Shown here: positions 12,142 to 57,955 of the stretch, in pieces | Layout: each line of letters begins with the position of its first letter | How positions within the stretch are numbered: position 1 is the stretch's first letter | Source of the DNA: Paenarthrobacter aurescens TC1 | GTDB taxonomy: Bacteria > Actinomycetota > Actinomycetes > Actinomycetales > Micrococcaceae | Reading direction: 5' to 3' | DNA length: 64,000 bases | Assembly: GCA_000014925.1 (NCBI GenBank) | Contig: CP000474.1 | Coordinates: 4,402,001-4,466,000, forward strand | Translations under genes and position numbers: made by a program | The notes under the pieces: generated by a model | What the model saw: the letters and a program-made list of their open reading frames with translations, nothing else | Databases searched by the model: none | Told to the model about the DNA's origin: nothing

Positions 12142-13555
12142 GCGTGGCTCCTTTCGAGGAGAATCCTGCATAGTCCGGGTACGCGGCAAAGATCCTACGG
12201 CTGATCTGTGCGGCTTCGCCGAGGTAGCTTGCGGGATTCAGGAGTGCTTCGAGTTCGGCATCGGACAGCTTGTCCGCGGGGACGGTTTCGCGCAGCAGCT
12301 TGGTGTAAATGCGGGACTGCTCGGCGGCGGGTGCTTTCAGGGTTTCGTCGACGACGGCCTGCAGCTTCTGCTTTCCGTCCTCGCCCAGCAGAGGAGCGAC
12401 GGCGGCAGCCACACCTTCGCTGAGCAGCAGCGGCCCTGTTAGTTCGAGGTTCCGGCGCATGGCATCCGGGAAGACGCGAAGACCTTCCATGAGTTCGCGG
12501 AGGTGTCCGGCTGCGCCCAGGGCCAACGCGAGCAGCTGACGCAAAGCAGGCCATTCGCTGTGCCAGGCGCCATCGGGTCGCTCATCGTTGAAGGTGGCCG
12601 CAGCCAGGTGCAGTTGCGACGCGAGGCCGGGAGCCTGCAACGCCGCACTGCGGATGAGCACGGACAGGACTGGGTTCTGCTTCTGCGGCATGGCGGAAGA
12701 AACACCGCGCCCGGCCGCCAAAGGTTCGCCGAGTTCCGCAACTTCAGGTCGGCTCAGGAAGAGCAGGTCCGCCGCGATCTTGCCGAAGGAATCGATGAGT
12801 GCAGCGAGGCCGTCCCCCAACGCCGTAATGGCCAGGCGGTTGGTGTGCCAGGGAGCGGCAGCCGGGGCGAGGCCAAGTGCGGCAGCCAACGAGTCGGCCA
12901 GCGTGAAAGGCGTGGAAGCTGAACCGGCAGTCAGCTTGGTCCCGGAGGCCAACGTGCCGCCGGCTCCGCCGAACTGGACCGGCAGCTCCAAGGACTCCAA
13001 GCGTGAAGCCGCAGCCGCAACACCCTGGAACCACTGAGCAGACCTGAGTCCGAACGTGTACGGAAGTGCGTGCTGCGTCAGGCTCCTGCCCACGCACAGC
13101 GTTTCCGCATGCTGTTCCGCCAAGGCGGCGAGCGCCGTCGTCGTGCCTTTGACGTCCAGCAGCAGCGCCGAAACGGTGCGGCTGGCGAGCAGCATGAGCG
13201 CGGAGTCGAGGACGTCCTGGCTGGTCAGCGAGGTGTGGACGGCTTTGCCGGCGCCGATCCCGGCCGAGTCCACGGACTTGACCCGGGCACGGAGGTCACC
13301 GAGCAGCGGGATCACCGGGTTTCCGCCACCTTGGGCCCGTTCCGCCACCGAAGCGGCGTCGTAGGAGTCCACATGGGCGGCTTCGGCCACCACAGCGGCA
13401 GACCCGGCAGGGACGAGCCCCGCGTCCTCGAGGACGGCAGCCCAGGAGGCTTCGACGTCGAGAATTGCCGCGATCACGGCGCGGTCGCCCGTCAGCGCAG
13501 CCACAGCGGGCGACGCCGAGACGGGGCTAAGGAGGCCGAAGTCGCCGTCGGTCAT
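12134..13555 (-). CDS. pcaB: 3-carboxy-cis,cis-muconate cycloisomerase
   Basis: 473 residues of the fumarase/argininosuccinate lyase superfamily. The diagnostic loop VSSAMPQKQNPVLS is present, and TSLTSQDVLDSAL and GRSLTQHALPYTFG match the other two conserved regions. It forms 4-carboxymuconolactone from the ring-opened product of PcaHG. The start ATG (MTDGDFGLLS) overlaps the pcaG stop by four bases (ATGA), and the stop overlaps the pcaD start by eight. Confidence 0.92.
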   Translation of the reverse strand: MTDGDFGLLSPVSASPAVAALTGDRAVIAAILDVEASWAAVLEDAGLVPAGSAAVVAEAAHVDSYDAASVAERAQGGGNPVIPLLGDLRARVKSVDSAGIGAGKAVHTSLTSQDVLDSALMLLASRTVSALLLDVKGTTTALAALAEQHAETLCVGRSLTQHALPYTFGLRSAQWFQGVAAAASRLESLELPVQFGGAGGTLASGTKLTAGSASTPFTLADSLAAALGLAPAAAPWHTNRLAITALGDGLAALIDSFGKIAADLLFLSRPEVAELGEPLAAGRGVSSAMPQKQNPVLSVLIRSAALQAPGLASQLHLAAATFNDERPDGAWHSEWPALRQLLALALGAAGHLRELMEGLRVFPDAMRRNLELTGPLLLSEGVAAAVAPLLGEDGKQKLQAVVDETLKAPAAEQSRIYTKLLRETVPADKLSDAELEALLNPASYLGEAAQISRRIFAAYPDYAGFSSKGATRG

Positions 13556-14151
13556 GCCGGTGTGTCCGCGTTGACGCTGGTTTCCAGCGAGCCGTCCTGC
13601 TGGAAGTCCAGGAACACGGTCTCGTCGCCACCCTGCAGGCGGATATCCCAAGTGAGGCCGCCGTCGGGATCGCGGCGTGCGATCAGCGTCTTGCGGCGCT
13701 CCGGATCCAAGGAGCTCAGCAGGGGATCGTTAGCCAATGCTTCTTCGTTTTCCGGCAGGTACACGCGGGTGAAGAGGCGGTTCATGAGGCCTCGGGCGAA
13801 GACCGCAACGGAGATGAACGCCGCAGCGCCGGGCTTGGTGGGGCCGGGGTTGACCGTGGTAAAGGTGTATACGCCGGAGTTGCCAACAGAGCCGCGACCC
13901 CAGCCGGTAAACGTGTAGCCGTCGCGAACCAGCGAACCGGTGCGCTGCACGATGTTGCCCTCGGAATCCGGCTGCCAGATCTCCAGGATGGCGTCCGGGA
14001 TGGTGCTGCCGGATCCGTCGTAGACCGTGCCTTGCAGGCGGATGCTGCCGGGGCTGCCCGGAGCCAGGAGCTCGTTGTCCTTGTTGAAGGGGAGTGCGTA
14101 GCCGTAGAACGGGCCTACGGTCTGGCCCGGTGTGGGTGTCAGCTTGCTCAT
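13552..14151 (-). CDS. pcaG: Protocatechuate 3,4-dioxygenase alpha subunit
   Basis: 199 residues of the intradiol dioxygenase fold, beginning MSKLTPTPGQTVGPFYGYAL, with DAILEIWQPDSEG and a C-terminal WDIRLQGGDETVF. As in other alpha subunits, the iron ligands of the beta subunit are not conserved. It forms the alpha-beta unit with PcaH, encoded four bases upstream, and cleaves protocatechuate between the two hydroxyls. Confidence 0.93.
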   Translation of the reverse strand: MSKLTPTPGQTVGPFYGYALPFNKDNELLAPGSPGSIRLQGTVYDGSGSTIPDAILEIWQPDSEGNIVQRTGSLVRDGYTFTGWGRGSVGNSGVYTFTTVNPGPTKPGAAAFISVAVFARGLMNRLFTRVYLPENEEALANDPLLSSLDPERRKTLIARRDPDGGLTWDIRLQGGDETVFLDFQQDGSLETSVNADTPA

Positions 14152-14155
14152 GTGC

Positions 14156-15028
14156 CTACTCCTCGTCCCCGGCGTCGCCGTATGCTTCGTTTTCCGTCCA
14201 GGTCCGCTTGGAACCGGTCAGGATGATGTCCCATTTGTAGCCGAGCGCCCACTCGGGGCTGGTGAGCTCATGGTCGTACTCCGCCACGAGACGGTCGCGG
14301 GCATCTTGGTCCACGATCGACTGGTAGATGGGGTCCAGCGGGAACAGCTGGTCGCCCGGAAAGTACATCTGGGTGACGATGCGCTGCGTAAACTCCGAGC
14401 CGAACATGGAGAAGTGGATGTGCGCCGGACGCCAGGCGTTCAGGTGGTTCTTCCACGGATACGCACCGGGCTTGATGGTGGTGAAGCTGTACGAGCCGTC
14501 GTCACCGGTGATGCAGCGGCCGACGCCGGTGAAGTTGGGATCCAGAGGCGCGGGGTGCTGATCGCGCTTGTGGATGTAGCGACCGGCGGCGTTGGCCTGC
14601 CAGATCTCCACAAGCTGACCGGCCACCGGTCGGCCGTCACCGTCAAGGACACGGCCGGCGACGATGATGCGCTCCCCTTGGGGCTCGCCGTTGTGCTGGA
14701 TGGTCAGGTCCGACTCCAGCGCGTGAACGTCCTGGTGACCGAAAGCGGGCGAGTAGAGTTCGATGGTCTCCGGGTCCGCGTGGTGCAGGTTCTTGGTGGG
14801 GTGACGCAGGATGCTGCTGCGGTACGGTGCGTAGTCCAGGCGCGGCATGGTCTCCGGGCCCCGGCCGTTCTTCAGTGCCTCGGCGTAGCGGTCACTGATG
14901 CCCTTCATCTCAGCACTGAGATCGGCTTGGGTTTCCACCTTCTTGGGGGAAACGTGCGCGGCATGCGCCTCTGCGGGCGGCACGAGTTCCTCGGATTCGA
15001 GCGCTTGTGCTGACTGTTCTTGCGGCAC
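14156..15028 (-). CDS. pcaH: Protocatechuate 3,4-dioxygenase beta subunit
   Basis: 290 residues. Iron-binding residues are visible: Tyr in NAAGRYIHKRD, then Tyr in GAYPWKNHLNAWRP and two His in PAHIHFSMFG, the 2-Tyr/2-His set of the ferric catalytic subunit. The start is the GTG at 15028, which has AAAGGAG six bases upstream. The first 35 or so residues are a low-complexity extension not typical of proteobacterial PcaH. First pca structural gene after qsuB, 41 bases downstream of it. Confidence 0.93.
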   Translation of the reverse strand: MPQEQSAQALESEELVPPAEAHAAHVSPKKVETQADLSAEMKGISDRYAEALKNGRGPETMPRLDYAPYRSSILRHPTKNLHHADPETIELYSPAFGHQDVHALESDLTIQHNGEPQGERIIVAGRVLDGDGRPVAGQLVEIWQANAAGRYIHKRDQHPAPLDPNFTGVGRCITGDDGSYSFTTIKPGAYPWKNHLNAWRPAHIHFSMFGSEFTQRIVTQMYFPGDQLFPLDPIYQSIVDQDARDRLVAEYDHELTSPEWALGYKWDIILTGSKRTWTENEAYGDAGDEE

Positions 15029-30360: not shown

Positions 30361-31752
30361 TCACCTGACGAACGCGTACAGCAGCGCCGCCATACCGAAG
30401 CCCACAATGGAAAGCACTGTTTCCAGCACGGTCCAGGTCTTCAGGGTGTCCTTGACTGACATGTTGAAGTACTTGGAGATGATCCAGAATCCGCCGTCGT
30501 TCACGTGGCTGGCGATGATGGAGCCCGAGGAGATAGCCACCACGATCAGCGCGAGCTGCGGTTGCGAGTAGCCGGAGGCGAGGCTGGGTGCCAGGATGCC
30601 ACCGGTGGTCACGATTGCAACGGTGGCCGAGCCCTGGGCGATGCGCATGCCGGCGCTGATCACGAAGGCGGACAGGATGATCGGAAGCCCGGCTTGGGAC
30701 AATGAATCGGCCACGGCCTGGCCGACACCGGTGGCTGAGAGGACTGCGCCGAAGAAGGCGCCGGCACCCACAACCAGCAGGATCATGCCCACGGGACGCA
30801 GCGAGGATCCCGTGATTTCGCTGAGTTCGGCGGAGGTCATGCCGCGGCGGATTCCCAGGAGCCACATGGCCAGGAGCACGGCGACGGTCAGCGCGATGGC
30901 CGGGTTGCCGAAGAACTGGAGCACATCACGGAAGGTGCCTGCGGGAGCAAAGATGTTTCCGAAGGTACCGCCGAGGATGAGGATCATGGGCAAACCGATG
31001 GCCAGAAGCACCAGTCCGATGGACGGTTCGTGGCCCTTGGCTTCCTCGGCTTCGGGAACAATGCGATCCTCCGGAACGGAAACCATGACTCGCTTGCCGA
31101 TCCAGGTGCCCCACAAGATACCGGATGCGAACCATGCAGGAATACCGCAGATCAGGCCCATGAGGATGATCCAGCCGAGATCCACGCCGAACAGTCCGGC
31201 CGCAGCAACGGGGCCGGGGTGCGGCGGAAGGAAGGCGTGCGTCACGGAGAGGCCGGCCAGCAGCGGGAGAGCGTAGAGGGCAAGTGACTTGCCACCACGG
31301 ATAGCCGCGACGTACACCAGCGGGGCAAGGACAAAGATGCCGATGTCGAAGAACACGGGGATACCCAGCACGAAGCCAGTGATACCCATGGCGAGCGGGG
31401 TGCCCTTTTCGCCGAAGATCTTCACGAGGCGGCCCAAAAGCACTTCCGCACCACCGGACCGTTCCAAGATGGCGCCGAGGACGGTACCGAGGCCAATGAT
31501 TACCGTGATGTGGCCGAGGATGCCGGCGAAGCCCTTCTCAATGAGGGCGTCGCTGCTCTTGGTGGCCGAGCCGACAAGGGCCTCCACGGAGATCCCACCC
31601 ACCAGGGCCACGATCACACCGGTTCCCACCAGGGCGATGAACGGTTCGAGCTTGACCTTGATGATCAGGAACAGCAGAAGGGCAATGCCGGCGCCTGCCA
31701 GGAGGAGCAGGCCGGCGGTGTCGTGCCGCAGCCATTCGAGGAATTCAGTCAT
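30361..31752 (-). CDS. GntP-family sugar-acid:H+ symporter
   Basis: 463 residues with about 12 membrane helices. GntP-family blocks include VKLEPFIALVGTGVIVALVGG, IFVLAPLVYVAA, THAFLPPHPGPVAAAGLFGVDLG and ISAGMRIAQGSATVAIVTTGG. The family moves gluconate and related acids. Last gene of the minus-strand sugar-acid operon, 22 bases after the aldolase. The ATG at 31752 directly precedes the first helix; the in-frame extension to 31839 would overlap the aldolase. Here the cargo may be glucosaminic or N-acetylglucosaminic acid, inferred from neighbours. Confidence 0.88.
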   Translation of the reverse strand: MTEFLEWLRHDTAGLLLLAGAGIALLLFLIIKVKLEPFIALVGTGVIVALVGGISVEALVGSATKSSDALIEKGFAGILGHITVIIGLGTVLGAILERSGGAEVLLGRLVKIFGEKGTPLAMGITGFVLGIPVFFDIGIFVLAPLVYVAAIRGGKSLALYALPLLAGLSVTHAFLPPHPGPVAAAGLFGVDLGWIILMGLICGIPAWFASGILWGTWIGKRVMVSVPEDRIVPEAEEAKGHEPSIGLVLLAIGLPMILILGGTFGNIFAPAGTFRDVLQFFGNPAIALTVAVLLAMWLLGIRRGMTSAELSEITGSSLRPVGMILLVVGAGAFFGAVLSATGVGQAVADSLSQAGLPIILSAFVISAGMRIAQGSATVAIVTTGGILAPSLASGYSQPQLALIVVAISSGSIIASHVNDGGFWIISKYFNMSVKDTLKTWTVLETVLSIVGFGMAALLYAFVR

Positions 31753-31774
31753 GACGAGTCTTTCTGGGTAAGTC

Positions 31775-32410
31775 CTACTTGAGGGTGCCGGTGAAGGCTG
31801 CGGCACGTGCCGCGATGTCTGCCCAGTCACCTGCAGCAACTGCCGCGGGCGGGACTACGCTGGTGCCGCAGCAGACTGCGGCAGCACCGGCGTCGAGGTA
31901 GCTCTTGGCGTTGGAGGCGTCGATGCCTCCTGAAGGGAGCAATCGGATGCCCGGGTACGGGCCCTGCAGGTCCTTCAGATACGCCGGGCCGAGCTGGCGG
32001 GCGGGGAAAATCTTGACGGCGGCCGAGCCCAGGTCCAGGGCCTGTGCCACCTCGGTGGGGGTCATGGCGCCGAGGCTGAACGGGATCCCCGCAGCCACGG
32101 CGACGGCGGCGACCTCCGGCCTGAGGCCGGGCGTCACCAGGAACTGCGCACCGGCGTCGATCGCTGCGCGGGCTTGATCAGCGGTCATCACGGTGCCGAT
32201 TCCGACGGCGGCGCCGTGCTCCGCTGCGGTCTCCGCCGCGCGCTTGACGTGCGTGAGCACATCCGGTGTGGTGAAGGTCAGTTCGACGCTGCGGATGCCG
32301 CCGTCGGCCAGCGCCCGGCAGAGATCGGCGGCGTCGGTGATGGACGGTGCGCGGACCACGGCCAGGGTGCGGTCGGCTTCAAGCTGCTGGAGGAATTGTT
32401 CAGGGGTCAT
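31775..32410 (-). CDS. eda: KDPG (2-keto-3-deoxy-6-phosphogluconate) aldolase
   Basis: 211 residues of the KDPG/KHG aldolase family. Schiff-base K133 sits in AVKIFPARQLG and catalytic E43 in SVELTFTT; LVTPGL and SGGI are further family markers. It splits KDPG to pyruvate and glyceraldehyde-3-phosphate. The ATG overlaps the stop of the amidohydrolase gene (ATGA). With the KDG kinase across the divergent promoter this makes a full lower Entner-Doudoroff module. Confidence 0.9.
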   Translation of the reverse strand: MTPEQFLQQLEADRTLAVVRAPSITDAADLCRALADGGIRSVELTFTTPDVLTHVKRAAETAAEHGAAVGIGTVMTADQARAAIDAGAQFLVTPGLRPEVAAVAVAAGIPFSLGAMTPTEVAQALDLGSAAVKIFPARQLGPAYLKDLQGPYPGIRLLPSGGIDASNAKSYLDAGAAAVCCGTSVVPPAAVAAGDWADIAARAAAFTGTLK

Positions 32411-34065
32411 TGTTGTCCTTCTCTGGTGAGGCCGTCGCTGCTGCGACGAAGGGCACGGCCCGCGCGGGCGCCGGTGGGCTTGCCGCCGTCGATCGCTGCC
32501 GTGCCGTTGACGAAGACGTACTGGAGGCCGCTGGCGGCTTGGCGGGGGTTCTCAAAAGTGGCTTCGTCGCGGACGGTTTCCGGATCGAAGAGCACGACGT
32601 CGGCCGCGTAGCCTTCGCGGACCAGTCCCCTGTTGTGGAGCTTGAGTCGTGCGGCGGGCCGGCCGGTGAGGTGGTGGACCATTTCCTCGAGGCTCAAGAG
32701 TCCGAGGTCCCGGGAGTAGTGGCCGAGGTAGCGCGGGAAGGTTCCCCAAGCGCGGGGGTGTGGCTTGCCGCCGACCAAGAGTCCGTCGCTGCCGCCGGTG
32801 TGGGTGCGGTGTTTCATGATGGCCTGCACGTTTTCCTCGTGACCCACGTGCTGCAGGATTCCGGTGCCGAGGCGGTCTTCCGTGAGGATCTGCGCGAAGA
32901 CGTCGAAAGGCTCTTGCTTGGTCTCGGAAGCGATGTCCCGAACGGTCTTGCCCACGTAGCCTGCGAGCGCGGGATTCTGGACGCCGCTGATCTCCAGGGT
33001 GTCCCATTCGGCCACCACTCCGTGGCAGCCGTCGGAGCCGTAGATCTCCACGGCTTCTTGGATGCGTGCGCGGGTTTCCGGATCTGCCAGGCGGGTCAGC
33101 GTGGCCTCGGTTCCGCCCGACGACGCCCAGCTGGGGAGGATCGCGGACAGTGTGGTGGCGCCCGGGAGGTACGGGTACGTGTCCAGGGTGATGTCCACAC
33201 CCTGGTCAAGGGCTTCGTCGATCAGCTCCAGGAGCTCCCCCGCCCGGCCCTTGTTTTCCGCGAAATTCATGGTGGCGTGGGACAAGTGCAGGGCACATCC
33301 GGTCTCGCGGCTCAGCCCGATCATCTCGGCGTAGGCACCCAGCGCACCCTTGCCGTAAGAGCGGTGGTGCGGCGCATAGAAGCCACCCAGTTCACCCACC
33401 GTCCGGCAGAGCCCGGCGAGTTCCTCGGTCTGCGCGTACATGCCCGGCGTGTAGGTGAGTCCCGAGGACATTCCCACGGCCCCTTCCTCCATCGCCGCGC
33501 GGATGATGTCCTGCATCTGCTGCTGTTGTTCCGGCGTGGGGTCACCTTCGGCGAAGCCCATCACCATGGCGCGGACGGTTCCTTGGGGAACAAGGTAGGC
33601 GGCGTTGGTGGCGATTCGGCCACCGTCCTGTTCCGTGTCCAGTCGGTCGAGGTACTCGCCAACTGTCCGCCAGTTCCAGTCGAACTCGGCAGGACTGTCG
33701 TTCCAGCCGGCGATTTTCTCGCGGACACCCGCCAGCGTGGCATCATCAACCGGCGCATAGGACAGTCCGTCCTGACCCAACAATTCCGTGGTGACGCCTT
33801 GGCTGAGCTTGGCGTAGTGATCCCTGTTGACCAGCAGTTGCAGGTCCGAGTGCGCGTGCATGTCGATGAACCCGGGGCTCAGGACCAGACCGGTGGCATC
33901 GATGACGCGCTCCGCGCCGGTTTCCGCTGCGGTGAGGGACCCGGCGTCGAGGGTTCCGGCGTCGACGACGGCGGCAATCACCGCGCCGTCCAGCAGGACG
34001 TCCGCGCGGCGGCGGGCCGCTCCCGTTCCGTCCACCAGGGTGGCATTGTTGATGAGGGTCTTCAT
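32407..34065 (-). CDS. D-aminoacylase-type amidohydrolase (candidate N-acetyl-D-glucosaminate deacetylase)
   Basis: 552 residues. Amidohydrolase-superfamily features: GFIDMHAHSDLQLL with the metal HxH near residue 67, the D-aminoacylase-type TYPYLPGATTLSAILPSWA, and a C-terminal beta-sandwich strand GYAADVVLFDPETV. Annotated relatives remove acyl groups from N-acyl-D-amino acids; N-acetylglucosaminic acid is a formal analogue. Between a PLP dehydratase-like gene (11 bases upstream) and KDPG aldolase (four-base overlap), deacetylation of N-acetylglucosaminate is the most economical role. The ATG at 34065 fits the family N-terminus MKTLINNATLVDG. Confidence 0.8.
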   Translation of the reverse strand: MKTLINNATLVDGTGAARRRADVLLDGAVIAAVVDAGTLDAGSLTAAETGAERVIDATGLVLSPGFIDMHAHSDLQLLVNRDHYAKLSQGVTTELLGQDGLSYAPVDDATLAGVREKIAGWNDSPAEFDWNWRTVGEYLDRLDTEQDGGRIATNAAYLVPQGTVRAMVMGFAEGDPTPEQQQQMQDIIRAAMEEGAVGMSSGLTYTPGMYAQTEELAGLCRTVGELGGFYAPHHRSYGKGALGAYAEMIGLSRETGCALHLSHATMNFAENKGRAGELLELIDEALDQGVDITLDTYPYLPGATTLSAILPSWASSGGTEATLTRLADPETRARIQEAVEIYGSDGCHGVVAEWDTLEISGVQNPALAGYVGKTVRDIASETKQEPFDVFAQILTEDRLGTGILQHVGHEENVQAIMKHRTHTGGSDGLLVGGKPHPRAWGTFPRYLGHYSRDLGLLSLEEMVHHLTGRPAARLKLHNRGLVREGYAADVVLFDPETVRDEATFENPRQAASGLQYVFVNGTAAIDGGKPTGARAGRALRRSSDGLTREGQQ

Positions 34066-34075
34066 GGCATGGGTC

Positions 34076-35392
34076 CTAGAAGAAGGTATGGATGAGGTCG
34101 ACGACGGTTTGGTCGCCGGCACTTTCGGCGGACGCGCTGTCCGCGAGCACCGGGATGACGGTCCACTTGTCGAACGCTGTGCACGGATGGGACAGGCCCA
34201 GCCGGACGACGTCGCCGGGGTTTACCGTGGTGGTGTTGGCGTCGTAGCTCATGAAGCTGTGTTGGTCGTTGACCGAGGTGATCTGGGCACCAAGCAGCGG
34301 TTGCATAGCTTCACCAAGGACCGGGCCGATGAACTGCGGCTCGGGCAGGCCTTCGTCGAACGGGAGGTCGCGCTTGCCGGCGTCGAGGATGGCCAGGCCC
34401 GGTTCAGTCTGCGAAACAACGCGTGCCCAGCCGTGCATCCCTGCTGTGAACGGTCGGTTGCCTTCCCGGGAAAACGGCGAGATTCCGCGGTAGAAGCCGT
34501 CGTCGTGGATGATGTAGGCGCCGCTGCGGATCATGAGGTCCACATTGGGACCGTCCTCCGGGTCTGCCCTGATGTACGGCGACAGAACCGTCACAACGTC
34601 GCCAAAGTAGGCGCTTCCCCCGGCTGTGAGGAACACGGAATCCGTGCCATACAGGCCTTCGGCGAGAAGCTGCTCGTGGAGCAGTCCTATCCGGGCGAGG
34701 TAGCCGCGAACGGCGGCCAGGCCGGCGTCGTCCGCTGTGTGCGCGAGCGAGCCTTCGTAACCGCTGACGCCCACCAGGCGAAGGTTCGGTGAGGCGGAGA
34801 TTGCCCGGGCTATCTCCACGGCAGCCTCCACGGATCGGGCACCGGTCCGGCCGCCGTGGGCGCCGAGCTCCACCAGGACGTCCAGCACGGCATCGCTGCC
34901 GGCAAGCGTCCGGTTGATGACGTCCACGGTTCCCGGCGAGTCGATCCACGACAGGATGGTGGTGTCCGCGGGCTGACTTGCGACCCACTGGATCGCGTGC
35001 GGATCCGTGAGGCTGTTGGCGAGCTGCAGGTTCCGCACGCCGAATTCGCGGGCTACGCGGAGCTGGGCGAAGTTGGCCAGGGTGATGCCCCAAGCGCCCC
35101 GGTTGAGCTGCTCGGTCCACAGCTGGGGCGACATGGTGGTCTTGCCGTGCGGGGCGAGCAGCACACCGTGTTCGGCGCACCAATGGGCCAGGCGGTCGGC
35201 GTTGGCCCGCAGTGCGCCGGCGTCGAGCGTGAGCAGCGGCGTTTGAAGGTCGGCCAGCGTGTGCTTGGCGGCGAGGAAGTCCGCATGGGTGGTTCCGTTC
35301 GCGGATGCGGGCACTGCTTTGTGGCGCCAGTCCAGACGGCGTTCAGCCAGGCCTGACACGGCGGATGCCGAGATGGCTTCGGAAGTGTTCAC
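34076..35392 (-). CDS. Fold-type III PLP enzyme (D-serine/D-threonine dehydratase-like; candidate glucosaminate dehydratase)
   Basis: 438 residues. PLP-binding K84 lies in LLAPHGKTTMSP on an alanine-racemase-like barrel, and a C-terminal zinc pair is visible as H402 and C404 in GLSHPCTAFDKW, as in eukaryotic-type D-serine dehydratase. These enzymes remove ammonia from a beta-hydroxy D-amino acid, and 2-amino-2-deoxygluconate has this arrangement. The product would be 2-keto-3-deoxygluconate, the substrate of the divergently encoded kinase. The GTG at 35392 has AAGGGA nine bases ahead; the longer frame to 35608 runs through the operator. Substrate is inferred. Confidence 0.78.
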   Translation of the reverse strand: MNTSEAISASAVSGLAERRLDWRHKAVPASANGTTHADFLAAKHTLADLQTPLLTLDAGALRANADRLAHWCAEHGVLLAPHGKTTMSPQLWTEQLNRGAWGITLANFAQLRVAREFGVRNLQLANSLTDPHAIQWVASQPADTTILSWIDSPGTVDVINRTLAGSDAVLDVLVELGAHGGRTGARSVEAAVEIARAISASPNLRLVGVSGYEGSLAHTADDAGLAAVRGYLARIGLLHEQLLAEGLYGTDSVFLTAGGSAYFGDVVTVLSPYIRADPEDGPNVDLMIRSGAYIIHDDGFYRGISPFSREGNRPFTAGMHGWARVVSQTEPGLAILDAGKRDLPFDEGLPEPQFIGPVLGEAMQPLLGAQITSVNDQHSFMSYDANTTTVNPGDVVRLGLSHPCTAFDKWTVIPVLADSASAESAGDQTVVDLIHTFF

Positions 35393-35472
35393 GCGTTTGG
35401 TTCCCTTCGCGGTGCTGCGTTCTTGAAGCTGCGTTGTGGGGCTGTTGGGTGAGTTCTGCTTGCGTTGCGTAT

Positions 35473-35492
35473 TTTGCAACGCTGGTTGCAAA
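35473..35492. promoter_or_regulatory. Perfect 20-bp palindrome between two divergent operons
   Basis: TTTGCAAC (35473-35480), GCTG, GTTGCAAA (35485-35492): perfect eight-base arms, centred between the starts at 35392 and 35571. This is the size and placement expected for an IclR-dimer operator, and the IclR gene is second in the plus-strand operon, so one site may control both transcripts. Confidence 0.75.
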
Positions 35493-35570
35493 CCTGCTGG
35501 TGATATGTCTAACATGGTGGCGGATCGAGAGTCAAGGCCGCTGCGAAGCGCACGAACTAGTGGGAGAACG

Positions 35571-36578
35571 ATGCTTTCAGCCGTATGCGTGGGCGAAACC
35601 ATGGCCATGCTTACCCCTGTCCACGCCGTCCCCCTGCACCTGGCAACCGAACTTCACTTCGGGGTCGGCGGCGCGGAATCCAACGTCGCCATGGGCTTGG
35701 CGGCCATGGGCCTGGACACGCACTGGGTCAGCCGGGTGGGCCACGACGGCTTCGGCACCCGCATCCTCCACGAGCTTCAGGACCACGGCGTGGGCGTCTC
35801 CGGCGTGGAAGTGGACCAGTCCCTCCCCACCGGCCTGTACGTCAAAGTCCCGGCCCAGGAGTCAGACCCCGACGGCGGCAGTTCGGTTCTGTACTACCGG
35901 CAAGGATCTGCGGCCTCGGCTATGGGACGGGACACGCTGTCCAATCCAGCCGTTTCCGCTTTGCTTGAGAACGCTGCGCTGATCCATCTGAGTGGGATCA
36001 CCGCTGCTCTCTCCCCCGAGTGTCTTTCGCTGTTGGAAGCAATCCTGACCTCTCCCCGCAACGGGCGGACCATCAGCTTCGACGTCAACTGGCGCGAAGC
36101 CCTCTGGGCAGGCCAGGACCGTTCCGTCCTGCAGCGCCTGGCGAACCTGGCCGACGTCGTGCTTGTTGGAAAAGACGAAGCCGAGCACGCCTTCGGCACC
36201 ACCGACGAAGCCGAACTCCGCCACATGATGCCCGACCCGAAGGTGCTGGTCATCAAGAACGAGGCCATCAGCGCCATCTCTTTGGACCGGAGCGGCAGCC
36301 GGGAAGAGGTGCCCGCACTGTCCGTCGCCGTCGTCGAGCCTGTTGGTGCGGGTGACTCGTTCGCCGCCGGTTACCTCAGCGGCATGCTGTTCGGGCTCGG
36401 CCAAAAGGAACGCCTCCGCCGCGGCCACGTTGCTGCTGCATGCACCCTCACCGTCCACGGCGACCGCGGTCCGCTGCCCGACGCCGCCGAACTCGCAGCC
36501 ATCCTCGATTCTTCGGATGACGTTTGGGCTGCTATCCATGTTGAAGACGGACAATTCAACACCAGAACCGGAGCGTGA
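35571..36578 (+). CDS. kdgK: 2-keto-3-deoxygluconate kinase (PfkB family)
   Basis: 335 residues. PfkB signatures: the substrate-binding GVGGAESNVAMGLAAMG near residue 31 and the anion-hole motif VGAGDSFAAGYLSG with catalytic D262. This subfamily phosphorylates KDG to KDPG. GGGAGA precedes the ATG at 35571. First gene of the plus-strand operon with iclR and ridA, divergent from the operon encoding KDPG aldolase. Other PfkB substrates such as fructose or ribose are possible, but the aldolase argues for KDG. Confidence 0.85.
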   Translation: MLSAVCVGETMAMLTPVHAVPLHLATELHFGVGGAESNVAMGLAAMGLDTHWVSRVGHDGFGTRILHELQDHGVGVSGVEVDQSLPTGLYVKVPAQESDPDGGSSVLYYRQGSAASAMGRDTLSNPAVSALLENAALIHLSGITAALSPECLSLLEAILTSPRNGRTISFDVNWREALWAGQDRSVLQRLANLADVVLVGKDEAEHAFGTTDEAELRHMMPDPKVLVIKNEAISAISLDRSGSREEVPALSVAVVEPVGAGDSFAAGYLSGMLFGLGQKERLRRGHVAAACTLTVHGDRGPLPDAAELAAILDSSDDVWAAIHVEDGQFNTRTGA

Positions 36579-36582
36579 CACC

Positions 36583-37344
36583 GTGAGCCAAAGCCTCATG
36601 CGGGCCATCGACCTGCTCGGCGAACTCGCCGCCAAACCAGCAACCCTGGACGAGCTGGCGTCCAAGGCTGCCGTCCACAAAACCACCGTGATGCGGCTCC
36701 TGCACGCCATGGAAGAAAAACGGTTTGTGGTGAGGGACGAAGACCAGCGGTTCATGCTCGGTTCCAAGCTTTTTGAACTGTCCTCGCTGGCCTTGGAACA
36801 GCGGGACATCCGCAAAGTGGCGCACCCGCACCTGGCCGAACTCAACGGCCGCACCGGGCACACCGTGCACCTCGCCGCCTTCGAAGGAAATGAAGTGGTG
36901 TACATCGACAAGTTCGAGTCGCACCACCCCGTGCGCATGTACTCGCGCATCGGCCTGACTGCATCACTGCACTCGGCCGCTGTGTCCAAAGTCCTCCTCT
37001 CCGACATGCCGCGCAGCCGGCAGGAAAAGATCGCCGCGGGGCTGGACTACGTAAAAGTTACCGAGAACACCCTGACCTCGCCGGAGGCCTTGCTGGCCGA
37101 ACTCGAGCAGGTCAAGGAACAGGGCTGGGCCCACGACAACGCCGAGCACGAAGCGTTCGTGCACTGCATCGCGGCCCCCATCCGGGACGCCAGCGGCGCC
37201 GTTGTTGCCGCAGCCTCTTGTTCGGTACCGGTAGTGATGCTCAGCTATGAAGGCTTGCTTGAGCTGCTGCCCGACCTCAAAGCCAGCACCGAGGCCATCT
37301 CCAACGACCTCGGCTGGATCAGCCACGAAAGGAACTCAGCATGA
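36583..37344 (+). CDS. IclR-family regulator of the sugar-acid locus
   Basis: 253 residues: winged HTH at residues 1-60 (LMRAIDLLGELAAKPATLDELASKAAVHKTTVMRLL) and an IclR effector domain (YIDKFESHHPVRMYSRIG, LHSAAVSKVLLS). The GTG at 36583 lies four bases after the kinase stop with GGAG nine bases ahead; an alternative ATG at 36538 would overlap the kinase. It probably binds the 20-bp palindrome at 35473 and responds to KDG or a related acid, as KdgR-type IclR proteins do. Confidence 0.85.
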   Translation: MSQSLMRAIDLLGELAAKPATLDELASKAAVHKTTVMRLLHAMEEKRFVVRDEDQRFMLGSKLFELSSLALEQRDIRKVAHPHLAELNGRTGHTVHLAAFEGNEVVYIDKFESHHPVRMYSRIGLTASLHSAAVSKVLLSDMPRSRQEKIAAGLDYVKVTENTLTSPEALLAELEQVKEQGWAHDNAEHEAFVHCIAAPIRDASGAVVAAASCSVPVVMLSYEGLLELLPDLKASTEAISNDLGWISHERNSA

Positions 37345-37745
37345 GTGAAAAGACCGTAGTACTGACCGAAAACGCCCCCGCCCCGGCGCACGTATTCTCC
37401 CAGGGCATCAAAAAGGGCGGCATGTTCCAGGTCTCCGGCCAGGGACCCATGGATCCCGCCACCAACCAGTACATCGGCGAGGGCGACGTCAAAGTCCAGA
37501 CCCGTCGCACGCTGGAGAACGTGAAGGCCATCCTCGAAGCCGGTGGATCCTCCGTTGAGGACGTCCTCATGTTCCGCGTCTACCTCACCACCCGCGACCA
37601 CTTCGCTGCCATGAACGAGGTCTACGGCGAGTTCATCCGCGAGAACGTGCCCAGTGGTTTGCTGCCGAGCCGCACCACCGTGTTCGTGGACCTGCCGCAC
37701 GAGGTCATGCTGGTGGAGATCGACGCCCTGGCCGTCACAGCGTAA
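37341..37745 (+). CDS. RidA family protein
   Basis: 134 residues with RidA features: FSQGIKKGGMFQVSGQGPMD near the N-terminus, EDVLMFRVYLTT in the middle, and the arginine-bearing PSRTTVFVDLPHEVMLVEI at the C-terminus. The ATG overlaps the iclR stop by four bases (ATGA). A PLP dehydratase produces enamine/imine intermediates that RidA proteins hydrolyse, which explains the linkage to this locus. Confidence 0.87.
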   Translation: MSEKTVVLTENAPAPAHVFSQGIKKGGMFQVSGQGPMDPATNQYIGEGDVKVQTRRTLENVKAILEAGGSSVEDVLMFRVYLTTRDHFAAMNEVYGEFIRENVPSGLLPSRTTVFVDLPHEVMLVEIDALAVTA

Positions 37746-49849: not shown

Positions 49850-51895
49850 ATGCAAAGACAACGAACATCACTCATGACGGCGGCCGCCACGGCGCTGCTC
49901 ATGACGGGCGCGGGGGTCATCACCGCGGCGGGCACGGCAGTCGCAGCCCCACCCACCACCGCGGGAACTACGACGACGGTCTCCGCCTCGCCTGACATCG
50001 AGGCGATGATTGCCGGCATGACGCTGGACGAAAAGATCGGCCAGATGACGTGGACTCACGTTTACGGTTCATCGGCGGACGACGCCTCCATGGCAGCAAA
50101 GAATCAAGAACGGTACGGCGTCAATACACCCGCCGAGGTGGTGGAAAAGTACAACCTTGGCGGCGTTCTCTACTTTGCATGGTCCGGCAACACCAACAAC
50201 CCGCAGCAGGTTGCGGGCCTTTCCAACGGCTTGCAGCAAACGGCCTTGCGAGAGGACGGGAACGGCATTCCACTGGCAGTCACCATCGACCAGGAAGGCG
50301 GTTTGGTTGCCCGCATTGGGCCGCCCGCCACAGTCCTCCCGGGCAACATGGCCCTCGGCGCCACCGCGGATGCGAATCTTGCCAAAGCACAAGGTGAAAT
50401 CCTTGGCTCCGAAATGCGCGCCATGGGTATCAACGTTGATTTCGCGCCGGTCCTTGACCTGAACTCCAACCCTGACAACCCGGTCATCGGAATCCGATCC
50501 ATGGGCGAGGACCCGGCCCTGGTCAGTGCCCTCGGTGTTGCCCAGATCGAAGGCATTCAAGCGCACAACGTAGGCGCGGCCGCCAAGCACTTCCCCGGCC
50601 ACGGCGACACCTCAGTGGATTCCCACTACGGACTGCCCACCGTCACCTACGATCGCGCAACACTCAATGAGCACCTGAAACCCTTCAAAGCTGCCATTGA
50701 CGGCGGGGTGGACATGGTCATGACGGCCCACATCATTGTTGAGGCCATCGACGCGGAAATGCCCGGCACCCTGTCCCACAAGGTACTCACCGGTTTGCTT
50801 CGCGATGAGATGGGCTTCAAGGGGTTGGTGACAACTGATGCCTTGGATATGGCCGCAATGGCCGCCGAGTGGCCCCAGGAAGAAATCGCAGTCAAGGCGA
50901 TCCAGGCCGGATCTGACATCCTCCTCAACTCCCCGGACGTGGACGCGTCGTTCGCCGGGGTTCGCGCCGCCGTCGAATCCGGCGAGATCACCGAGACCCG
51001 CCTGGATGAGTCCGTCCGACGGATCCTTGAATGGAAGGTCAAGCGTGGGGTCTTCGAGCAGCCTATGGCAGACCCCGCCGCGGTGGACACCCTGGTGGGA
51101 AGCGCAGAGAACCTGGCCACGGCAAAGCTGATCTCCGACCGCGCCGTCACCTTGGTACGCAATGAGAACGGGGTCTTGCCGCTCGCTTCGGGCAGCTCGG
51201 TGCTCATGGTGGGTGCCGGTTCAGCGTGGCCCGAGCTCGCGGGACCAATGCTCAAGGATCAGGGATTCACAGTCACCGAAGACTACGAGGATGGGGCCTC
51301 GCCCTCCGCGGCCTACCGCGCACGTGCGGTGGCTGCCGCCGGCAACGTCGATGCCGTGGTCTTCGCTTCCTACAACGCGACCAGCAATGCTGCGCAGCAA
51401 CAGATGGTCGCGGAACTCGCCGCCACCGGCACACCGGTGATCGTTGTGGCAACCCGCAATCCCTACGACATCAACGTCTTCCCCGGCGCCGACGCCGTAC
51501 TTAACAGTTATGGAGTCAAAGAGGTCAATTTCCACGGTGCTGTCCGTGCCATCTCAGGTGCGGTCAACCCCAGCGGCAAGCTGCCGGTCAACGTGCCGAA
51601 GGCCGACGCCAGCGGTGTCCTCCTGCCGTTGGGCTTCGGGCTGAGCTACGAAATTACGACGCCGGCCCCCGTCACCTTCACGGACCGCCCGGGTCATGGG
51701 CAGGACGGTTACACCATCCCCTCCGTCCCGGGTGTTGCGTACCTGATTGACGGCAAGGAAGTCGCCGCCGGAAGCTATAGGAAGCCTTCAGGCACTGTGA
51801 CCGTCACAGCGGAACGGCTGCCCGGGTATGTCTTCACCGACGGTTCCGTCACCGAGTGGACGCACACCTTCACCACAGGGCTCCCCAAATCCTAG
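49850..51895 (+). CDS. nagZ: Exported GH3 beta-N-acetylglucosaminidase (NagZ type)
   Basis: 681 residues: signal peptide (residues 1-33, ending AAGTAVAA), the GH3 barrel with KHFPGHGDTSVDSH (246-259; D257/H259 form the NagZ Asp-His dyad), nucleophile D330 in TTDALDM, then a GH3 second domain and a C-terminal beta-rich tail. The Asp-His loop marks hexosaminidases rather than beta-glucosidases. Two-domain length matches Bacillus NagZ. It should release GlcNAc from wall fragments, complementing NamZ, 56 bases upstream. Confidence 0.87.
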   Translation: MQRQRTSLMTAAATALLMTGAGVITAAGTAVAAPPTTAGTTTTVSASPDIEAMIAGMTLDEKIGQMTWTHVYGSSADDASMAAKNQERYGVNTPAEVVEKYNLGGVLYFAWSGNTNNPQQVAGLSNGLQQTALREDGNGIPLAVTIDQEGGLVARIGPPATVLPGNMALGATADANLAKAQGEILGSEMRAMGINVDFAPVLDLNSNPDNPVIGIRSMGEDPALVSALGVAQIEGIQAHNVGAAAKHFPGHGDTSVDSHYGLPTVTYDRATLNEHLKPFKAAIDGGVDMVMTAHIIVEAIDAEMPGTLSHKVLTGLLRDEMGFKGLVTTDALDMAAMAAEWPQEEIAVKAIQAGSDILLNSPDVDASFAGVRAAVESGEITETRLDESVRRILEWKVKRGVFEQPMADPAAVDTLVGSAENLATAKLISDRAVTLVRNENGVLPLASGSSVLMVGAGSAWPELAGPMLKDQGFTVTEDYEDGASPSAAYRARAVAAAGNVDAVVFASYNATSNAAQQQMVAELAATGTPVIVVATRNPYDINVFPGADAVLNSYGVKEVNFHGAVRAISGAVNPSGKLPVNVPKADASGVLLPLGFGLSYEITTPAPVTFTDRPGHGQDGYTIPSVPGVAYLIDGKEVAAGSYRKPSGTVTVTAERLPGYVFTDGSVTEWTHTFTTGLPKS

Positions 51896-52934: not shown

Positions 52935-53399
52935 CTACTGCCCTTGCCCGGGCGTCTCGTACGACTCCGGGGTTAGACGGCCATCTGCGGCAACATTGGT
53001 CTGCTTCCCGGGGACGATGTCCGTGTTCTGGGCGCTGACCGCGAGCCATCGGCCGTCACTTTGACGCACGGCCGTGAAGCTGATGACTCCCCGTCTGGGC
53101 CCTGATCTCTCGCCGGTGGGCGTGATCTGGCCGGTCATGGACCACCTCGCGTGGACAACGGCCACCTCGGTGCCGAGCTCCCGGACTTTGACCTTTTCCA
53201 ACACCATCTCCGTGTCCGGAAACATGTGCCGGAAACCATAGTCGTGGTTGAACATGATCTGCCTGCGGTTGTTCCACCACATGCCTACGACGTTCACAAA
53301 GTCGGCGTCCTCCACGAACAGCTCCGCCAGCGCCACGGGATCAGCCACGTTCCACGCTCTGGCGAAACCGTCGGCTACGTCGCGGGGGCTCGGTTTCAT
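52935..53399 (-). CDS. SnoaL/DUF4440-like small protein (SgcJ/EcaC type)
   Basis: About 154 residues of the NTF2-like fold: SPRDVADGFARAWNVADPVALAELFVEDADFVNVVGMWWNNR is the typical DUF4440/SgcJ N-terminus, and GRWLAVSAQNTDIVP the C-terminal strand. Such proteins bind or convert small molecules; function not assignable. The ATG at 53399 shares one base with the lacI-type gene stop; a GTG at 53402 is equally possible. It is thus coupled to the LacI-ABC operon. Confidence 0.72.
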   Translation of the reverse strand: MKPSPRDVADGFARAWNVADPVALAELFVEDADFVNVVGMWWNNRRQIMFNHDYGFRHMFPDTEMVLEKVKVRELGTEVAVVHARWSMTGQITPTGERSGPRRGVISFTAVRQSDGRWLAVSAQNTDIVPGKQTNVAADGRLTPESYETPGQGQ

Positions 53400-54415
53400 C
53401 ACGCCGATTCGCGGATGACCAGTTCGGTGGGGATGGTGACGGCGGCGGGGCGTTTGCCGCTGATGACGTCCAAGAGCAGCCGCACCATTTCCTCGCTGAT
53501 GCGGTCGAACGGCTGCCGGACGGTAGTGAGCGGGGGCGCCGCCTCTTGCGAGGTACTGATGTCATCAAAGCCGACGACGGCGACATCACCCGGGATTGTC
53601 AGACCGGCTTCGCGCAAAACATCCATTGCGCCGAGTGCCATGAGGTCGTTCGCAGCGAAAACGGCATCGATGTTCTTGGTGCGACCGAGAAGTTCACGCA
53701 TCGCTTTGGCCCCGCTGTCGCGGCTGTAGTCACCCTGGGCAATGAGCTCTTCATCGATATCCGCACCTTGATCGTCCCGGTACGCTTCGAGTCGCCGCGT
53801 ACCGCCGGAGGTGTCCGCAGGGCCGGCGATGGTGGCAATCCGCTGCCGGCCGCCGTCGCGAAGGTACCGCAAAACGTCGCGAGCGCCCTCGTAATCGTCG
53901 GCAGCGACGTAACCCATTTTCTTCTCGAAGCCCAAGGGGGCGCCACAAGCGATCGCCGGGACACCCGCGGAAATGATGTCCGCGATGATGCCCTTCCTGC
54001 TGCCATGGGAGGAGATGAGGAGGACACCATCAACGTGGCCTGCTGTGAGGAAGTCGGTGGCTCGCCGTTGTTCATCATCGGTGCCGGCCATGATCAGGAC
54101 CAGCGGGATGTCATGCACAGCCAGAGCGTCCGCTGCGCCGCGCATGAGGACAGCGAAGTTGGGGTCCTCGAAGAGACGTTCTTGGGTCTCAGTGAGCAGG
54201 AAAGCCACGGAATTGGCGCGGTTGGTGGCGAGATTCCTTGCGTGCGGGTTGACTCGGTAGCCCGTCTTCTTGATCGCGGCGTTGACAGCGGCCAGAGCCG
54301 ACGGGCTGACCCAGTGGCCACCGTTGAGAACCCGGGAAACCGTACCTCGCGATACGCCGGCTTCTGCGGCCACATCGTCGATTTTGGGCCGTGGCCTGGG
54401 GGCGGATTGCGTCAT
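53399..54415 (-). CDS. LacI-family regulator of the CUT1/beta-galactosidase locus
   Basis: 338 residues: LacI HTH (residues about 9-60, IDDVAAEAGVSRGTVSRVLNGGHWVS, then the hinge) and a periplasmic-binding-like domain (VAFLLTETQERLF, VVGFDDISTSQEAAPPLTTVRQPF). It lies downstream of the importer genes on their strand and probably binds the two TGTGAGCG-type half-sites in the divergent promoter at 57877-57977. Likely inducer: a galactoside. The ATG at 54415 is the family start; the longer frame is not used. Confidence 0.87.
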   Translation of the reverse strand: MTQSAPRPRPKIDDVAAEAGVSRGTVSRVLNGGHWVSPSALAAVNAAIKKTGYRVNPHARNLATNRANSVAFLLTETQERLFEDPNFAVLMRGAADALAVHDIPLVLIMAGTDDEQRRATDFLTAGHVDGVLLISSHGSRKGIIADIISAGVPAIACGAPLGFEKKMGYVAADDYEGARDVLRYLRDGGRQRIATIAGPADTSGGTRRLEAYRDDQGADIDEELIAQGDYSRDSGAKAMRELLGRTKNIDAVFAANDLMALGAMDVLREAGLTIPGDVAVVGFDDISTSQEAAPPLTTVRQPFDRISEEMVRLLLDVISGKRPAAVTIPTELVIRESA

Positions 54416-54435
54416 GACCCAAAGCCTACCTACCG

Positions 54436-55335
54436 CTAGGCCTTCACGGCGCCAGCGGCAAGATCCACCTTCCAATAGCGCTGCAGGAGAAGGAACATGA
54501 TCACCAACGGCACGATTGACAGCAGCGCGCCGGCGAGCACCAGCGTGTACAGGGCGGGTGCTGAAGCGCCTTGGTTCAACAGACCGTTAAGTCCCACAGT
54601 GACCGGGAACAATTGGTCGTCGCCGAGCATGATGTACGGCAGCATGAAGTTGTTCCAAATGGCCACGAACTGGAACAGGAAAATGGTCACCAAGCCTGGC
54701 AACATCATGGGTGCAGCAATGCGGTTGAAGATATACATTTCCCTGGCACCCTCGGTTCGGGCGGCCTCAATGACATCACCGGGAACGGAGGCCGCGGCGT
54801 AGATCCGCGCCAAGTAAATGCCGTACGGGCTGATGATCTGCGGCAAGAGCACCGACCAGTAGGTGTTGGTGAGGCCGGCTTGGGCCAGCATCAGGTATTG
54901 CGGGATGGCGAGGATGACGCCGGGAACCAGCACCCCCATGAGCAGGACCTTGAAGACACCGGACTTGCCCGGGAAATCAAACTTCGCCAAGACGTAGCCG
55001 GAAAGCGCAGAGACCCACGTGGACACGATGGCTCCGACGCCCGCGTACAGGGCAGTGTTGAGCATCCAGCGCCAGAACAGGCCATCGCGATATTCGGTGA
55101 GCTCCACGATGTTGTCCCAGAGGTGAGTGCTGGGAGCCAAGGTAAACGTGGAGAACAGCTCAGTGCCGTCCTTGCTCGCGGCAGCCACTACCCAGATCAC
55201 GGGGAACAGGCAGTACAGCGCACCAAGGATCAGGATTCCGGTGGAAAGGTAACTCGGCTTTTCCTTGACGTACTCCGCCTTGGTTGCCTTGGGATTGGTT
55301 CTGTTGGATTTTCGGGAAGTGGCGAGGGCAGTCAC
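54436..55335 (-). CDS. CUT1 ABC importer permease (MalG type)
   Basis: 299 residues with six membrane helices and the EAA loop in EAARTEGAREMYIFNRIAAPMMLPG. The N-terminus has a 28-residue charged extension. It pairs with the MalF-type permease two bases upstream. No ATPase gene is encoded at this locus, so the importer probably uses a shared MsiK-type ATPase encoded elsewhere. Confidence 0.88.
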   Translation of the reverse strand: MTALATSRKSNRTNPKATKAEYVKEKPSYLSTGILILGALYCLFPVIWVVAAASKDGTELFSTFTLAPSTHLWDNIVELTEYRDGLFWRWMLNTALYAGVGAIVSTWVSALSGYVLAKFDFPGKSGVFKVLLMGVLVPGVILAIPQYLMLAQAGLTNTYWSVLLPQIISPYGIYLARIYAAASVPGDVIEAARTEGAREMYIFNRIAAPMMLPGLVTIFLFQFVAIWNNFMLPYIMLGDDQLFPVTVGLNGLLNQGASAPALYTLVLAGALLSIVPLVIMFLLLQRYWKVDLAAGAVKA

Positions 55336-55337
55336 GG

Positions 55338-56309
55338 TCAGTTCTCCTGTCCGAAGGCCCGCTTCTGCACGATGCGCAGGAACAGGAACGAAATGATGAA
55401 GGTTGCCAGGGCAATCACGATGCTGGTGGCAGCCGCGGAAAAGACATCGTTGCGCGTGAAGGCATCGCGATACACCAGCATCAGCGGGGACCAGCTCGTG
55501 GAAAGGCTGTTGGCAAGAGGGCGCAGCGTGGTGGGTTCAGCGAAGACCTGCAGCGTGGCGATCATCGAGAACAGTGCGGTCATCACCAGCGATGGCGCGA
55601 TGATGGGGATCTTGATGCGCAGGGCCGTCTGGATTTCAGAGCAGCCGTCCAGCTTGGCGGCCTCGTAGATTTCGCTGGGAACGGCCTTCAGCGAGGTGTA
55701 CATAACGATCATGTTGAAGCCGACGCCACCCCAGAGGGCGATATTGCAGATGGCGAACGTCACCAGGTTGGGATCCAGCAGCGAAGGCAGTTCCATTCCG
55801 AACTGCCTGGCCAGGAAGTGGAACGGGCTGACGCCGGGGAGGTAAAGGAAGCCCCACAAGAGCGAGCTGATCACAGCCGGTACTGCATACGGCAGGAAGA
55901 TGGCCGTGCGGGAGAAACTACCGGCACGTGTGCGCCGGGAGTCCAGCAGGAGTGCAAACAGCAGGGCAAAGCCGAGCATCAGGGGGATGAGGATGAGCCC
56001 GTAAGTGAGGACCCGCAGGACGCTGCCAAGGAATTCCGGGTCCGTCAGGGCGCTGACGTAGTTGTCCAAACCGGCGAAGGCCGTGCTCTGTGAGCCTTTG
56101 CCGAGGCCCAGTCCGCTGACCTTCTTCTTCTGGAAGCTGAGCACCAAGGTGTAGATGATGGGCGCTGCCATGAAGACGAGGAAAAGGATGATGCCCGGCG
56201 CGAGCATTGCATAGGGGATGAGCACCCGGGATTTGAAGTTCTTCGACTTCCTCGGGGTTCCGGCTGCAGTATCGGCCGCCGGACCGGGCCTGGTTACGGT
56301 CATTGCCAC
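55338..56309 (-). CDS. CUT1 ABC importer permease (MalF type)
   Basis: 323 residues with six membrane helices and EAA loop EAAKLDGCSEIQTALRIKIPIIAPS. The GTG at 56309 (VAMTVTRPG) has AAGGAAG seven bases upstream; the frame further upstream to 56420 lacks coding character. It follows the binding-protein gene after 168 bases and precedes the MalG-type partner by two. Confidence 0.86.
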   Translation of the reverse strand: MAMTVTRPGPAADTAAGTPRKSKNFKSRVLIPYAMLAPGIILFLVFMAAPIIYTLVLSFQKKKVSGLGLGKGSQSTAFAGLDNYVSALTDPEFLGSVLRVLTYGLILIPLMLGFALLFALLLDSRRTRAGSFSRTAIFLPYAVPAVISSLLWGFLYLPGVSPFHFLARQFGMELPSLLDPNLVTFAICNIALWGGVGFNMIVMYTSLKAVPSEIYEAAKLDGCSEIQTALRIKIPIIAPSLVMTALFSMIATLQVFAEPTTLRPLANSLSTSWSPLMLVYRDAFTRNDVFSAAATSIVIALATFIISFLFLRIVQKRAFGQEN

Positions 56310-56477
56310 GGGTGCACTTCCTTGTGGTGGATCGACGTGTGGTGATTCTGGTTCGAACTGTGGTGATTCGATGTGGGACAGCGTGCGCGGGAGGGTGCCA
56401 GGCGTCTCGCCGGCGGACACCCTCCCACGCTGAATCGGCTACTCTGAACTGCTGCTTGGAACTGCTGCTTGGCGCGG

Positions 56478-57803: not shown

Positions 57804-57876
57804 TTCGTCCTCCTTGTCGAAAAGCTGAATTGTGCTGTCTGGGATTCACCGCTCATCCGAACTGGGGTCGCATGAC

Positions 57877-57919: not shown

Positions 57920-57955
57920 CACTGAATAACATCTAGTCAGGGCAACGATGGCTGT

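Follow-up and report, generated by a model that had tools for sequence, protein, structure and literature searches.

We analysed a window of 64,000 nucleotides of Paenarthrobacter aurescens TC1 (CP000474.1), whose positions serve as coordinates below, and found at 30361–37745 two divergent arms of genes that together resemble a pathway for the breakdown of an N-acetylated amino-sugar acid. Profile searches confirmed the families that an earlier note, made from the DNA letters, had assigned to the seven genes. The minus-strand arm consists of a fold-III pyridoxal phosphate (PLP) enzyme, an amidohydrolase that we call AmiH, a 2-keto-3-deoxy-6-phosphogluconate (KDPG) aldolase and a GntP permease, and the plus-strand arm of a PfkB kinase, an IclR regulator and RidA. 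Within each arm the genes lie close together or overlap, by 4 bases in the case of AmiH and the aldolase and again of IclR and RidA, and 178 bases separate the two arms. The features are as follows:

30361–31752, minus strand: GntP-family permease (PF02447, E = 1e-124; TIGR00791 above its cut-off)
31775–32410, minus strand: KHG/KDPG aldolase (TIGR01182 above its cut-off)
32407–34065, minus strand: AmiH, a D-aminoacylase-like amidohydrolase (Amidohydro_3), with Asp99 where a metal-ligand Cys is expected
34076–35392, minus strand: fold-III PLP enzyme, D-serine-dehydratase-like (PF14031 and PF01168, both above the Pfam cut-off)
35464–35480, no strand: putative operator GTTGC-N7-GCAAC in the divergent promoter region
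35571–36578, plus strand: PfkB kinase of the 2-keto-3-deoxygluconate (KDG) kinase type
36583–37344, plus strand: IclR-family regulator (top-scoring curated model KdgR, below its cut-off)
37341–37745, plus strand: RidA-family protein (PF01042)

The PLP enzyme has both domains, Ala_racemase_N and D-ser_dehydrat, that are required of fold-III D-serine dehydratase-like enzymes. For the kinase, the best solved relative is the KDG kinase 1v19 (E = 3e-44), and residues G34, Y90, Y108, R110, R175 and D262 are at least 95% conserved among 76 sequences. The nearest non-designed solved relative of the aldolase is the KDPG aldolase 1wa3 of T. maritima (E = 2e-38); the match to the 2-keto-3-deoxy-6-phosphogalactonate (KDPGal) aldolase 2v81 was E = 1e-19.

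We collected relatives with a profile built from three AmiH proteins, scanned against a single genome of each species. At least 545 AmiH relatives were found, and we kept the best-scoring 80 loci, which are not a random sample, include some stretches that end at contig boundaries and come from actinobacteria except for one with a doubtful label (L025). The PLP gene adjoins AmiH in all 80, and RidA (77), the kinase and IclR (75 each), GntP (62) and the aldolase (46) accompany them less uniformly, with the complete seven-gene set in 33. The aldolase is absent from the Amycolatopsis loci and from most Streptomyces loci, and three loci (L019, L069 and L070) hold only PLP, AmiH, RidA and GntP of the seven in the stretch covered. 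A plasmid search revealed all seven genes in identical order in Tsukamurella, and Arthrobacter sp. StoSoilB13 proved to carry AmiH and PLP genes closely similar to those of the host. The AmiH subfamily was present in 51 of 296 sampled genomes of the class, in a count that covered this gene alone, and in 6 of 25 genomes of the genus. The gene set therefore recurs as a unit, as the earlier note had proposed to check. The note had also remarked that a compact version in a soil actinobacterium would be new; the locus stands, but its singularity does not, since the unit is conserved across many actinobacterial genera and is a common actinobacterial one rather than a one-off.

Some of the relatives deserve separate mention. 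L025 is labelled Sporosarcina beigongshangi, but its G+C content is 0.67–0.71, higher than that of Sporosarcina, and its AmiH and PLP enzyme are nested among those of Micrococcaceae; its label or assembly is therefore doubtful and we claim no transfer to Bacillota. A Microbacterium plasmid carries a decayed-looking copy (L007, 5971–9375), in which the kinase and PLP genes are each annotated as two pieces and the amidohydrolase is short. Plasmids of Klebsiella variicola, Pantoea and Rahnella (L003, L004 and L008) encode a relative of the PLP enzyme (about 41% identity) together with IclR, RidA and an amino-acid ATP-binding cassette (ABC) transporter; the stretch covered contains neither a deacetylase nor a kinase. 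These plasmid genes perhaps act on glucosaminate in its free form or on a beta-hydroxy-D-amino acid.

The palindrome claimed between the arms is present, as two overlapping inverted repeats (35462–35482 and 35473–35492). Five of the 80 loci were omitted from the operator test because they lack the kinase gene; in all 75 others, GTTGC-N7-GCAAC occurs between the PLP and kinase genes, with 45 perfect copies, 28 with one mismatch and 2 with two. Letter shuffles of the same regions gave a perfect copy in 0.03%, at most one mismatch in 0.4% and at most two in 8%, a comparison that ignores kinship and uses a pattern picked after inspecting the window and its relatives. The conservation of the pattern exceeds chance. 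Across the host genome, the bare pattern occurs at 9 places and a reversed control at 27, and hence the pattern itself is not rare. The IclR protein is presumably what binds this operator.

Further genes accompany the cluster in some relatives. Within 10 kb of the cluster, eight Amycolatopsis loci encode a glycoside hydrolase family 20 (GH20) beta-N-acetylhexosaminidase, a sugar ABC transporter and a lactonase (PF10282). In Amycolatopsis L033 and L038, the genes for PLP enzyme, AmiH, GntP, lactonase, solute-binding protein (SBP), permeases and GH20 lie on one strand with short gaps, and in Arthrobacter L013 and L014 the cluster is flanked by ABC, GH20 and IclR genes. Saccharopolyspora L083 has a lactonase and an SBP gene near the cluster, and Kribbella L031, in which no GntP was found, has a sugar-type SBP gene following the aldolase. 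In L083 (Saccharopolyspora kobensis), a 573-residue open reading frame with a marginal Amidohydro_3 match also lies between GntP and the lactonase (13129–14850). A GH20 gene is near the cluster in 10 of the 80 loci and in two genomes of the genus (G012 and G022). As judged by eye, GH20 has no signal peptide and the Amycolatopsis lactonase has an RR-type leader.

The host genome has two GH20 genes, and one belongs to an IclR–GH20–permease–permease–SBP module 27 kb beyond RidA, just past the window end (G000:C1:4467046–4472837). The GH20, SBP and IclR of this module are 67, 74 and 73% identical to their cluster-side counterparts in L014, and its GH20 and SBP are 52 and 56% identical to those of L038. 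Among the 25 genomes of the genus, strict E-value limits placed orthologous SBP and GH20 genes only in G000, G008, G012 and G022, all of which carry AmiH (4/6 genomes with AmiH versus 0/19 without; one-sided p = 0.0012, which ignores kinship). The end of the module is about 600 bases from RidA in G022 and about 2 kb from it in G012. A GH20 match without AmiH was found in G031.

Upstream of the host SBP gene (L100, 10827–10899) we also observed two sites, TGGTCTATACCT and TGGTCTAGTCCT, that are dre-like with two mismatches each to the DasR consensus, and a TTTGCA-N-TGCAAA palindrome. Double control by a DasR-type regulator and the second IclR protein is possible for this region. The interval that separates the cluster from the GH20 module holds a GH3 gene (49850–51895) and genes for a LacI regulator, a sugar ABC transporter and a GH42 beta-galactosidase (53399–60039).

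Taken together, these genes are probably two operons for the catabolism of a 2-acetamido-2-deoxy-aldonic acid. The likeliest such acid is N-acetyl-D-glucosaminate (GlcNAc1A), the C1-oxidized end of chitin. GntP would import the monomeric acid, and AmiH, acting as a 2-acetamido-aldonate de-N-acetylase, would strip its acetate. The PLP enzyme would then dehydrate and deaminate glucosaminate to KDG and ammonia, with RidA hydrolysing the imine or enamine released in this step. The kinase would convert KDG to KDG-6-phosphate, which the aldolase would cleave to pyruvate and glyceraldehyde-3-phosphate, and the IclR protein may repress both arms through the shared operator until an intermediate appears. 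In a fuller version, whose genes remain side by side in some relatives but lie about 27 kb apart in the host, the ABC transporter would import oxidized chitobiose for GH20 to cleave inside the cell, and Amycolatopsis would add the lactonase. Gene families, conservation, operator, linkage and co-occurrence are what we observed; every substrate named here, the site and ligand of the regulator and the role of RidA are predictions. A 2-acetamido-aldonate best fits the joint presence of an N-deacylase, a beta-hydroxy-D-amino-acid dehydratase and a KDG/KDPG-type kinase and aldolase. The earlier note had read the cluster as such a pathway, and the ABC, GH20 and lactonase neighbours in relatives, with the GH20–ABC–IclR module in the host, strengthen that reading; we infer that the acid is N-acetylglucosaminate rather than another 2-acetamido-aldonate.

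Several observations weigh against this reading, beginning with the module. ABC and/or GH20 genes flank only 11 of the 80 clusters, a lower bound given that the module of L011, evidently the same genome as G008, lies about 10 kb off, beyond its flank. In the order, 14 other genomes were covered, and the three of them with AmiH lack the module. It is conceivable, if unlikely, that the module merely imports chitobiose, lies near the cluster by coincidence and says nothing about the acid, an explanation compatible with the other alternatives considered below. Its 27-kb distance from the cluster in the host, the few clusters with such neighbours and the five genomes with AmiH and no module (G005 and G023 within the genus, and G028, G030 and G036) would suit such an importer, as would the dre-like sites, which suggest general control by N-acetylglucosamine (GlcNAc). 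Against coincidence stand the matched presence and absence across the genus, the adjacency in G022, G012, L013 and L014, and the contiguous genes in Amycolatopsis L033 and L038.

The proposed order of steps has a precedent in marine bacteria. The ong cluster of Pseudoalteromonas prydzensis is an oxidative chitin utilization pathway for GlcNAc1A that includes a deacetylase, a PLP deaminase, KdgK, RidA and the GH20 enzyme OngA, with roles established by knockouts and, RidA excepted, by assays; the RidA protein is required for growth, and the ong clusters of Vibrio, Klebsiella and Serratia also carry kdgA (PMC9537276). Our cluster would follow the same sequence of N-deacetylation, PLP-dependent deamination to KDG and KDG phosphorylation, with a KDG kinase and a RidA that are putative counterparts by family. 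It is also alike in the KDPG aldolase of some ong clusters and in the regulator beside the genes, and a GH20 for oxidized chitobiose, near the cluster in some relatives and 27 kb away in the host, may be a further counterpart. However, its deacetylase and PLP enzyme belong to other clades, GntP and IclR stand in place of the SSS symporter OngIT and the RpiR regulator OngR, and ABC import with an apparently intracellular GH20 stands in place of TonB receptors and periplasmic OngA. The ong pathway is also paired with a lytic polysaccharide monooxygenase (LPMO) of family AA10, and none was found in the host genome. The enzyme clades, the OngB residues that AmiH lacks, the replacement of OngIT and OngR and the lack of an AA10 match rule out the host cluster as an ong-type member. 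Thus the likeness to chitin-oxidizing marine bacteria noted earlier holds for the logic of the steps and not for orthology of the key enzymes: the host cluster would follow the ong logic with enzymes from different clades within the shared superfamilies. What is new is the enzymes, transporters, regulators and phylum; the logic was already known. A survey of 2,455 marine and 12,220 terrestrial genomes found no complete pathway outside Gammaproteobacteria and a single Achromobacter, with an ong cluster defined as at least four homologues and combined with an LPMO (PMC9537276). Among the matches listed from the open-licence literature, none reported an actinobacterial GlcNAc1A pathway.

AmiH also differs from its marine counterpart at specific residues. 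In an alignment of 21 AmiH-clade rows, the position of OngB Cys97 was Asp and that of Ser292 was Thr in all rows, and the position of the carboxylate-binding Lys254 was Thr in 20 and Val in one, whereas His222, His252 and Asp368 were retained. The Gln298 column was Arg in most rows, a placement made unsure by an adjoining large insertion, and AmiH has extra residues following the Ser291 loop of PpOngB. PpOngB is a GlcNAc1A de-N-acetylase with solved structures (9kb1 and 9kb3), and its S292T mutation lowers kcat/Km to 1.3% (PMC12017989). AmiH is 36% identical to the D-aminoacylase AfDam versus 30% to PpOngB, and in a tree PpOngB, Vibrio OngB and 9g5m joined AfDam and L112 (support 100/100), with AmiH in a separate clade (100/98). 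AmiH resembles the D-aminoacylases AfDam (1m7j) and BbDam (3gip) in fold and in the Thr at position 292, but differs from them in its Asp metal ligand, in lacking a Lys254 that is reportedly strictly conserved and in its sugar-acid operon partners. Two assignments of AmiH accordingly failed: as a PpOngB-type de-N-acetylase with a Cys/His/His metal site, with Asp at the Cys position and Thr at that of Ser292, and as a subtype V D-aminoacylase, with both the metal-ligand Cys and the alpha-carboxylate Lys absent. In L109 and L110, other GQDG-motif amidohydrolases that keep the carboxylate Lys adjoin diaminopropionate ammonia-lyase (dpaL) and a YgeY-type hydrolase; there the Asp-type metal site is put to a different use.

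The PLP enzyme is 33% identical to Vibrio OngC and shares with OngC and the D-serine deaminase 3gwq the two domains and an SHPC motif, but it falls outside the clade that joins them (100/98), in a tree in which the Vibrio and Klebsiella sequences were labelled OngC from their neighbouring genes. OngC itself also accepts D-Ser and D-Thr (PMC9537276). Because AmiH lacks the OngB specificity residues and both key enzymes lie outside the OngB and OngC clades, the substrate is not transferable by homology.

The altered AmiH pocket, unlike that which OngB uses for GlcNAc1A, leaves room for another 2-acetamido-2-deoxy-aldonate, as do the kinase scores, which were 146 and 145 bits for two bifunctional models of KDG and 2-keto-3-deoxygalactonate (KDGal) versus 96 for KdgK, all below cut-off. 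The candidates would include N-acetylgalactosaminate, by way of KDGal and KDPGal, and N-acetylmannosaminate, and KDPG-family aldolases can be promiscuous. We nevertheless consider such a substrate rather unlikely: the aldolase is nearer to the KDPG enzyme 1wa3 than to the KDPGal enzyme 2v81, and the linked GH20 and ABC genes suit chitobiose-type sugars, an argument softened by the acceptance of N-acetylgalactosamine by some GH20 enzymes.

We also weighed a scavenging pathway for N-acyl-D-amino acids, whether of D-Ser, D-Thr or hydrophobic residues, in which AmiH would deacylate, the PLP enzyme deaminate and RidA clear the imine. Database names for such genes usually run along these lines, and the nearest sequences in the Protein Data Bank are a D-aminoacylase for AmiH and a D-serine deaminase for the PLP enzyme. 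Activity of OngC on D-Ser and D-Thr points the same way, as do related AmiH homologues elsewhere, whose neighbours include peptide-type ABC genes and either dpaL or a threonine/serine dehydratase gene, and the three loci without kinase, aldolase and IclR in the stretch covered. Sco4986 of Streptomyces, a possible member of the AmiH family, is reported to act on hydrophobic N-acyl-D-amino acids. The explanation is nonetheless improbable, as it has no role for the KDG-type kinase of 75 loci or the KDPG aldolase of 46, and AmiH lacks the conserved carboxylate Lys that D-aminoacylases share with OngB. The kinase, aldolase, GntP, GH20 and sugar ABC transporter are sugar-type partners and argue against plain D-amino-acid use. 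It is very improbable that this is a gluconate or KDG operon that acquired a deacylase and a dehydratase serving some other purpose, because although GntP, KDG kinase, KDPG aldolase and a KdgR-like IclR suit KDG or uronate use, the PLP gene is constant and the aldolase and GntP are variable, the opposite of what it predicts (AmiH, by which the loci were found, is not countable here).

A further point against the proposed N-acetylglucosaminate pathway concerns the source of the acid. The host genome gave no match to PF03067 (AA10; other LPMO families lay outside the search) and none to GH18 chitinases; a GH19 search also gave no match, but its control failed. A link to chitin oxidation by the host itself is therefore unsupported, and the host would scavenge. 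Across the 296 class genomes, AA10 was present in 39 of 51 with AmiH versus 46 of 245 others (p = 4e-15), a figure heavily weighted by one large genus (g39); counted by genus, it was 7/15 versus 24/99 (p = 0.115). The association with LPMO genes that the earlier note had proposed to look for appears by genome count and not by genus count. AA10 was found in 22 of 49 named AmiH-bearing genomes searched, including all five of the Amycolatopsis genomes with ABC and GH20 genes that this search covered (L033, L035, L038, L040 and L056), and in none of 10 cluster-bearing Micrococcaceae genomes (L009–L017 and L022), the module-bearing L013 and L014 among them. It is likely, as we read this distribution, that Amycolatopsis supplies itself with oxidized chitin acids and that Arthrobacter scavenges them.

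Actinobacteria are a phylum usually tied to chitin turnover in soil. We suggest tentatively, as something possible but short of probable, that they have an oxidative-chitin pathway of their own, put together separately from that of marine bacteria, and that strains without LPMO or chitinase scavenge the acids released by other microbes. If true, the use of C1-oxidized chitin would be a common trait of Actinobacteria, beyond the Gammaproteobacteria, and one pathway would have been built twice out of the same superfamilies. Proper names could then replace the present annotations of D-aminoacylase and alanine racemase, and the cluster would offer an easy way to recognize, from the genome, microbes that live on the LPMO products of others.

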